From Bacteroidia bacterium (GTDB lineage: Bacteria > Bacteroidota > Bacteroidia > J057 > JAIXKT01): DNA of 50,250 nucleotides. Position 1 is the first letter of the stretch. Each line of letters begins with the position of its first letter. The position numbers and the translations under genes are program-made. The stretch is from assembly GCA_026932145.1 (NCBI GenBank), contig JAIXKT010000007.1, positions 413,168 to 463,417 of the forward strand, in the 5' to 3' direction. Below are positions 31,037 through 32,555 of this stretch, piece by piece. The notes beneath the pieces were generated by a model. It was not told the origin of the DNA. It did not search any database and saw only the letters and a program-made list of their open reading frames with translations.

Positions 31037-31549
31037 ATGTTTTTTTTTAGATATTTTCTCTGCCTCTTATTCTGCGGGACGCAATTCTTATTACTTGCTC
31101 AACCTAATGACGGGAGTAGTTTTAAAACTAAGCAACAAGAAATGCTTGCTTTAATGGCCAGCCAAAAGCCAATACTAAATAAATTATCTGAAAATATGGA
31201 AGAATATCGCCAGAAGTTAGACCAATGGATTGATGTTCTTAAATATCCGTCTAAAATTCGGGATAATAAAACGGCTGCTACACAGGCTGTTGTTACCATT
31301 CGGAAATTTAATGATACCGCTTTTTCACAATTTAAAGAGCTTACTGCTAAATGGTTTCAATATAATTTGCATCTAATGGCTGTTTATACTCGCTATGGAG
31401 AGCAAAAAGAACGCGGTAAAATAGATCCCGAACTAACCGAATTTCTGAAAGAACATCGCGCACATTTAACACAAATGGATTCTGTTTACTCTAAAATCCA
31501 AGATGTCTTTAATGATTGTGATTTTCTGCTGAATTCAAAGCTGAACTAA
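31037..31549 (+). CDS. Small secreted helical protein of unknown function
   Basis: A 170-residue protein with a signal peptide (FFFRYFLCLLFCGTQFLLLAQ). The mature part is almost wholly helical and charged, with heptad-like spacing (LNKLSENMEEYRQKLDQWID, FKELTAKWFQYNLHLMAVYT). I recognise no domain. The ATG is fixed by the signal peptide. It is the first gene of a pair with the isoprenoid-synthase-like gene, 10 bases apart. It could be periplasmic or lipid-facing, but that is a guess. Confidence 0.7.
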   Translation: MFFFRYFLCLLFCGTQFLLLAQPNDGSSFKTKQQEMLALMASQKPILNKLSENMEEYRQKLDQWIDVLKYPSKIRDNKTAATQAVVTIRKFNDTAFSQFKELTAKWFQYNLHLMAVYTRYGEQKERGKIDPELTEFLKEHRAHLTQMDSVYSKIQDVFNDCDFLLNSKLN

Positions 31550-31559
31550 GTACTTTGCA

Positions 31560-32555
31560 ATGATACAACCAGTCAAAGCCATACAAAAGCTATTGGTTGG
31601 TTTTCAGGCTTTTGTGTGGGTTTTATATACTTCTGAAAAGCATAAGCGTTGGTTAAAAAAACACCTAATACCAATAATAGAATCTTTTTTTGAGCATGAT
31701 GACGGAACGCTAAAAGAAATTGGGCAGAAAAAAATCCTCAGTTATGCTACCTTAGTACCGATTTTTATAAGCCATAATACCGCAACTTTATATGGAAAAA
31801 AACTTTCCCATATAGAACTTTCATTGCAGGTGTATTTAGCCGCAATCACACCGTTGATTGATGAGTTTTATGAAACCTCAAAAAAAGATGCACTGCAAAA
31901 TCTTTCCAATCTTTTAAATTCGCCAAACCAATATAAACCTCAAAATACGCACGAAGAACTGACGTTATTTCTTTGGAAAAAAATTTTAGGACTCGTAAAA
32001 CAGCCAGTTGTTTTTCACCAAACTATTTCACAAGTAATTGATATTCAGACAAAAAGTAAACTTCAGCATCAATCTTTATCGGTTTCAGAAATAAAGCAAA
32101 TTACCCTTGAAAAAGGGGGGCGTTCGATGTTGTTATTTTTGGTTACGTTGCCTTTTCCGGTAAATCCAGAAACGGAACGCTTGTTTTACAACTTAGGTGC
32201 TGCTATTCAGCTATTGGATGATTTGTTGGATATTTATGAAGACTCACGTGCAGGCATACAGACTTTGGCTACCGGCCAAAATATAGAATTGGCTTTTAGA
32301 GAGTTTCGCAAGGCACACCAACAAGTAATTGAGATAACAAAAACGCAGATTAACAGTAAATCCAAAAGTCTTTTTTTAGCAATTTTGGCAATGTTGTTAC
32401 TTTCCGGTTATGTTGCTATTCACAATATTCAAAAATTGTATAGCCATTCAGGACATGATTTTAACCCATTGAATTACAGCCGTTCTCAGTTAGTTACGGA
32501 TATGGAAAAAGCCAGTAATTGGTGGATTGCTATTCGTTATTATTTTCAGCTATAG
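31560..32555 (+). CDS. Class I isoprenoid-synthase-like protein
   Basis: A 331-residue, mostly helical protein. Two acidic clusters sit where class I terpenoid synthases bind Mg-pyrophosphate. The first is D101-E-F-Y-E105 (ITPLIDEFYETSK) and the second D220-D-L-L-D224 (GAAIQLLDDLLDIYEDSRAG), about 120 residues apart and on predicted adjacent helices. KGGRSMLLFLVTLP upstream of the second cluster also fits this all-helical fold. A hydrophobic helix (LFLAILAMLLLSGYVAIHNI) is near the C-terminus. The assignment rests on motif placement and is moderate. No other terpenoid genes are nearby. The end overlaps the convergent rsmE by 10 bases. Confidence 0.62.
   Translation: MIQPVKAIQKLLVGFQAFVWVLYTSEKHKRWLKKHLIPIIESFFEHDDGTLKEIGQKKILSYATLVPIFISHNTATLYGKKLSHIELSLQVYLAAITPLIDEFYETSKKDALQNLSNLLNSPNQYKPQNTHEELTLFLWKKILGLVKQPVVFHQTISQVIDIQTKSKLQHQSLSVSEIKQITLEKGGRSMLLFLVTLPFPVNPETERLFYNLGAAIQLLDDLLDIYEDSRAGIQTLATGQNIELAFREFRKAHQQVIEITKTQINSKSKSLFLAILAMLLLSGYVAIHNIQKLYSHSGHDFNPLNYSRSQLVTDMEKASNWWIAIRYYFQL

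Follow-up and report, generated by a model that had tools for sequence, protein, structure and literature searches.

In the trans-isoprenyl-diphosphate synthases (trans-IPPS), such as FPP and GGPP synthases, the KxxR motif, the RR pair, and the post-motif lysines bind the second substrate, IPP. The sections of PMC7484799 that deal with these enzymes define the DDxxD motif of the prenyl synthases and the terpene synthase triad (N/D)DxxS/TxxxD/E, and consider what the KxxR arginine contributes to IPPS activity as opposed to that of terpene synthases. In the same sections, certain terpene synthases of fungi and insects are described as having arisen from IPPS, with an IPP-binding arginine implicated.

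The protein considered here, P0001 (331 aa), is encoded by an intact ORF at 31560-32555 of the window, which is the whole stretch of 50,250 nucleotides from a Bacteroidia bacterium that was analysed; all window features given below are on its + strand. P0001 belongs to a sparse, unnamed Bacteroidota family with the predicted fold and the metal-binding residues of terpene-making enzymes and, as judged from sequence and models, is probably itself an enzyme, so far undescribed, that makes terpenes or transfers prenyl groups. A first-pass annotation had described a helical protein, likened to the class I isoprenoid synthases, with two acidic motifs about 120 residues apart, the second of which lacks the G-x-ED form. 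Each of these features was seen again: DEFYE and DDLLDIYED start at D101 and D220, which are 119 residues apart, the G-x-ED form is absent from the second motif, and the AlphaFold2 model is all-helical. DEFYE is a conservative variant and not DDxxD itself.

The AlphaFold2 models of P0001 (pLDDT 90.1, pTM 0.87) and of a second family member with canonical motifs, L039:9576-10580:+ (pLDDT 93.4, pTM 0.91), were compared with known structures by Foldseek and VIA-align. In Foldseek, CrtM fills the top rows for P0001 (best E 6.9e-4) and a GGPP synthase is the best match of L039 (E 1.5e-4); these E-values are modest, with TM-scores of about 0.3-0.65. In VIA-align, P0001 matches the BjKS ent-kaurene synthase with Z 17.6 (242 aligned residues, 3.5 A), MoeN5 with Z 16.9 (244, 3.6 A), FPP synthase with Z 16.6 (244, 3.9 A), and a class IB terpene synthase with Z 16.5 (277, 4.4 A), while L039 matches MoeN5 with Z 17.5 (250, 3.6 A) and class IB with Z 17.2 (277, 4.2 A). 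For helical models without a clear match, the best Z in VIA-align is typically 14, and at rank 50 it has dropped to 6 (13 at most), as against 15.8 and 15.2 at rank 50 for the two models here. All of the best 50 rows from both programs and for both models are class I isoprenoid synthases, and they include prenyl synthases, terpene synthases, CrtM/squalene synthase, MoeN5, and a carbazole prenyltransferase. Since the top VIA-align rows are tied within about 1 Z, the fold gives the superfamily and not the reaction, and an assignment to subfamily from the fold was dropped for the same reason. Searches of solved structures with profiles also brought up growth-hormone and clathrin-adaptor chains (best E 0.045-0.1), which have the look of chance matches between helical proteins.

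The two acidic motifs lie at the ends of model helices 84-105 and 203-223. Taken together, the fold matches and the motif conservation described below strongly support the placement of P0001, on models and sequence, among the class I isoprenoid synthases, as had been proposed, and the structure comparison suggested in the first-pass annotation returned members of this superfamily in all rows listed. The narrower suggestion of a squalene/phytoene-synthase-like enzyme held for the superfamily and not for that branch, as the sequence is slightly nearer to trans-IPPS.

The family is patchily distributed. A single-sequence search detected homologues in 9 of 100 genomes of relatives, and a profile search in 19 of 395 sampled genomes of the class (Bacteroidia); they are present in 11 of 395 genomes of the phylum and in 5 of 22 of the order. 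The window's own genome is part of every count, and the samples share genomes. The contigs that carry them in the named collection are Bacteroidia/Bacteroidota MAGs. Members are 16-29% identical to P0001, according to a 28-row alignment that omits L031, a close relative of L052:10131-11117, and their tree does not track the bacterial families closely, although it has weak deep forks and long branches. The sole Pfam match of P0001 is polyprenyl_synt, which it matches with 16.8 bits where the cut-off is 27, and no NCBIfam model matched it. None of the scanned members attains a Pfam isoprenoid cut-off; the commonest sub-threshold match is again polyprenyl_synt (7 of 28 members), and SQS_PSY matches one of the 28 (E 0.012). 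Since the Pfam and NCBIfam models do not flag the family, its genes would be overlooked by genome mining that relies on such models. A search of open-licence PMC papers, with subscription papers and preprints outside its scope, found no description of the family. NCBI labels some Bacteroidota proteins as 'class 1 isoprenoid biosynthesis enzyme', and the superfamily assignment may thus already stand in public annotation. L039, the single member tried for a mobile or viral origin, had no match in plasmids or phages.

Tandem pairs of paralogues are present in four genomes of one genus, g68 (G075, G228, G254, and G300), three of which have a third copy elsewhere. The pairs (L045:9133-11101:+, L052:9149-11117:-, L053:8812-10780:-, and L020/L031) keep the motifs in both members, an arrangement that would suit a heteromer (heterodimer) or a two-step pathway.

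Across an alignment of 29 members, which omits a copy split over two frames (L061), four copies from another class (f81), and three longer relatives (L156-L158), D101, Q163, K185, G213, Q217, D221, D224, and D228 are invariant. The first motif, D101-E105 (31860-31874), mostly has the form D-[D/E]-x-x-[D/E] in the family: residue 102 is acidic in 27 of the 29, and residue 105 in all of them (27 D, two E). Ahead of it, the sole conserved basic residue is K58 (31731-31733), which is K or R in every member. Q163 (32046-32048) aligns with the Q of the trans-IPPS GQ motif and K185 (32112-32114) with the K of the KT motif. The second motif, G213-xxx-Q217-xx-D220-D221-xx-D224-xxx-D228 (GAAIQLLDDLLDIYED; 32196-32243), has D at residue 220 in 16 members and N in 13, as counted by eye from the alignment columns, so that its family form is (N/D)DxxDxxxD, which includes the DDxxD of prenyl synthases. 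It departs from the canonical triad of bacterial terpene synthases: the spacing fits, as do the first position (N/D) and the last (the acid at i+8), but i+4 is D and not S/T in all 29. E227, the E of the 'ED' in P0001, varies across the family, and therefore the likeness to the D-x-x-ED of phytoene synthase and class IB enzymes belongs to P0001 and not to its family. Near the C-terminus is a signature, R308...D314-M315-x-K317 (32481-32510), which may form a diphosphate-binding lid, with R308, D314, and M315 each retained in 27 of 29. Since they are conserved in all 29 members, the acidic motifs of P0001 are more than chance; their acidic residues, whose constancy the earlier annotation had proposed to check, are constant in the aligned members of the class and vary in one outlying subclade.

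The family alignment was compared by hhalign with two sets of known enzymes. Against 31 of 32 trans-IPPS proteins (one misread short ORF was omitted, and the rows kept include one that is out of register), the match has P 0.0047 and a probability of 7.5%, and it brings the first motif, Q163, K185, and Q217..D224 into register; against 29 of 30 PSY proteins (one of 537 aa was omitted), it has P 0.03 and covers a shorter stretch. In the trans-IPPS set, 30 of the 31 rows share K24, R27, R72, R73, K152, K207, and K217. The family keeps a counterpart of K152, namely K185, and possibly one of K24/R27, namely K/R58, whereas no residue conserved in the 29 members corresponds to R72, R73, K207, or K217. 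Since residues of the IPP site are missing, chain elongation is unlikely, and a reaction with a single substrate or with an acceptor other than IPP is favoured.

The most likely function of P0001, as far as sequence and models indicate, is the Mg-dependent ionisation of a prenyl diphosphate, either as a single-substrate terpene synthase or as a prenyltransferase to a non-IPP acceptor. The balance of probability leans modestly towards the former, that is, a terpene synthase of the class I isoprenoid synthase fold from an undescribed Bacteroidota family, which would act on one substrate and quench the cation intramolecularly. P0001 would bind one prenyl diphosphate via a Mg cluster on D101/E105 and on D220/D221/D224/D228 of the facing helix, and the diphosphate may be held by K58, K185, and the C-terminal lid of R308/D314/K317. 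Loss of the diphosphate would then leave an allylic cation in a hydrophobic pocket. This cation would most likely be quenched intramolecularly, by cyclisation or elimination, and not by IPP, since the IPP-binding basic residues of the trans-prenyl synthases are missing.

The surroundings of the gene were also scanned. The first-pass annotation had noted the lack of terpenoid neighbours, and indeed the ten other ORFs scanned at 26-38 kb of the window include no recognisable isoprenoid or terpenoid gene; they match aldehyde dehydrogenase, VanZ-like, acyl-CoA dehydrogenase, RNA methyltransferase, SUI1, PAS/SpoIIE, and periplasmic binding protein families, or (three of them) no Pfam family. Three PF00348 synthases above the cut-off are encoded in the same genome, and they could supply the substrate of P0001. 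PF19086 has no match in this genome, nor in any of 14 control genomes, and is hence uninformative. A conserved terpenoid cluster was also considered and rejected: over the 23 loci compared, no neighbour family occurs at more than five, the commonest other one being a response regulator (five), and the neighbours scanned are mostly housekeeping or unrelated. Possible isoprenoid neighbours were seen at only two of the 23 loci, namely those of a distant copy (L056) and of the frame-split copy (L061).

At L056:8218-11617:-, a methyltransferase, the family member, and a flavoprotein stand in a row on one strand. The methyltransferase matches geranyl-diphosphate 2-C-methyltransferase (PDB code: 4f84; E 7.3e-18), although a generic methyltransferase is the better match, and the flavoprotein is nearest to digeranylgeranylglycerophospholipid reductase (PDB code: 3oz2; E 5e-24). 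At L061, a methyltransferase lies 13 nt upstream of the enzyme copy, which is split over two frames. Methyltransferases partner terpene synthases in non-canonical terpene clusters, as described in the part of PMC13022886 that concerns such clusters; since they are common, those at L056 and L061 are a hint only. Of the loci with a member of the P0001 family, L056 is the likeliest to be a small terpenoid cluster.

The gene just upstream (31037-31549; 170 aa) ends 10 nt ahead of the start codon of P0001. It had been taken for a small secreted helical protein of no known family, which agrees with its hydrophobic N-terminus, as read from the sequence, and with the lack of any Pfam match above the cut-off. 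The two genes had further been proposed to form a lipid or terpenoid module, and this part of the proposal fails. In the same 100 genomes, homologues of the upstream gene occur in nine (eight and the window's own) and the enzyme in nine, and the overlap is one, the own genome: the enzyme is absent from the eight other genomes with the upstream gene, and the upstream gene from the eight others with the enzyme. A two-gene module was rejected on these counts. Elsewhere, the upstream gene has surroundings of its own, with a DUF3467-type gene nearby in three of the five loci fetched and, in two of these, a YicC-type gene just beyond, where the families were confirmed for L073, and DUF3467 for L074, and the rest were assigned by similarity. 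In the family of the upstream protein, W106, R119, G121, E122, and C161 are invariant in 8 of 8 aligned sequences. The gene is best read as a separate, undescribed family that is probably unlinked to the enzyme and stands ahead of it by chance, and it is possible that the two are co-transcribed in this genome.

Among the other explanations of P0001, a prenyltransferase to a non-IPP acceptor, acting head-to-middle as MoeN5, head-to-head as squalene/dehydrosqualene synthase, or on a small molecule, has a lesser though appreciable probability. The rows led by MoeN5 for L039 in VIA-align and by CrtM for P0001 in Foldseek point in this direction, as does the single SQS_PSY match, and the Q..(N/D)xxxDxxxD helix would suit an enzyme of this type; however, the structural rows are tied and the fold does not discriminate, PF00494 has no match in P0001 at E<=10, and no acceptor-making gene was recognised among the neighbouring ORFs scanned. 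It is improbable that P0001 is a divergent trans-IPPS which elongates with IPP via a rebuilt IPP site. Although trans-IPPS is the closest family by sequence, to which it aligns at the first motif, GQ, K, and the second motif, and a K/R at 58 could be a remnant of KxxR, the RR pair and the post-motif lysines are without conserved counterparts in the 29 members, and the same genome already has the three PF00348 synthases above the cut-off.

Some distant relatives have degraded motifs. In the four homologues from another class (f81), Q163 is lost in all four, and in L155, as read by eye, D101 is replaced by E, the acid at 105 by R, K185 by R, and Q217 by R; because of this loss, the family is not uniformly catalytic. 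The f81 copies (L152:9719-10762:-, L153:9028-10008:+, L154:9318-10475:-, and L155:9332-10312:-), in which the catalytic residues are progressively lost, stand in conserved synteny with SmpB, a tyrosyl-tRNA-synthetase-type enzyme, LepA, and a signal peptidase, and they are a possible pseudoenzyme lineage. The longer, distant relatives (413-420 aa; L156:9202-10440:+, L157:8732-9991:+, and L158:6203-7441:-) have the first motif DN(Y/G)(L/I)D, as well as KGG(S/T)SVL and QL(I/V/L)DD, with no Pfam match at E<=0.01, and make up another undescribed group of this kind.

The degraded motifs of the syntenic f81 copies, the tandem paralogues in four genomes of one genus, and the PF00348 synthases of the own genome as possible partners would also fit P0001 as a non-catalytic partner of a genuine prenyl synthase, either small-subunit-like or a pseudoenzyme; but the acidic residues and K185 are kept in 29 of 29 members at low identity, which is unexpected for a pseudoenzyme, and this explanation is slightly less probable still than that of a divergent trans-IPPS. 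Coincidental likeness of an all-helical protein, to which the sub-threshold sequence similarity to known families could be ascribed, is very improbable in view of two confident models, structural matches listed that all belong to one superfamily, and invariant motif residues.

With the single-substrate terpene synthase as the preferred reading, a broader evolutionary proposal can be made, although only tentatively and at somewhat less than even probability: the family may comprise patchily distributed class I terpene synthases of Bacteroidota that are missed by Pfam-level searches and have descended from a trans-prenyl synthase scaffold that lost its IPP site, with (N/D)DxxDxxxD as a hybrid, intermediate second motif in which the DDxxD of prenyl synthases is combined with the i+8 acid of terpene synthases. 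If this reading of the motif is true, a route from a chain-elongating enzyme to a bacterial terpene cyclase becomes testable, and the hybrid second motif together with the missing IPP site would make the family a test case for the change from prenyl synthase to terpene synthase. If active, the family would be an added terpene-forming or prenyl-transferring lineage in Bacteroidota.

Compared with known systems, P0001 resembles the head-to-middle prenyltransferase MoeN5 in that this enzyme is the best or a tied structural match of the two models, and it differs in its low identity (about 8-10%) and in that no moenomycin-type context was recognised among the neighbouring ORFs scanned. The squalene, phytoene, and dehydrosqualene synthases (PF00494) share the fold, with CrtM in the top Foldseek rows, whereas their profile match to the family is the weaker one (P 0.03), and PF00494 is also without a match in the own genome. 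The class IB terpene synthases (DUF2600/PF10776; BalTS and YtpB) give the longest alignment to P0001 (277-280 residues, Z 16.5), and DDLLDIYED is spaced like DY(F,L,W)IDxxED, as given in the part of PMC7839719 that defines the class IB motifs. However, the first motif of P0001 and its family is not the DYLDNLxD defined there, E227 is not conserved in the family, and PF10776 has no match in P0001 at E<=10 and none in the own genome.

The trans-IPPS (PF00348) share the fold (Z about 16-17), and the first acidic motif, the Q of GQ, the K of KT, and QxxDDxxD are in register. P0001 differs from them in scoring below the PF00348 gathering cut-off, and the family differs in lacking the RR pair and the post-motif lysines, in keeping at most one residue of KxxR (58), and in having the extra acid at i+8 and the C-terminal R..DMxK signature. 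In its IPPS-type scaffold with changed IPP-binding residues, the family is similar to the IDS-like terpene synthases of fungi and insects, as these are presented in the relevant sections of PMC7484799 and PMC13143122. Those enzymes, according to the same sections, are recent eukaryotic offshoots of GGPPS/FPPS, whereas the P0001 family is very diverged and bacterial, with a putative activity.
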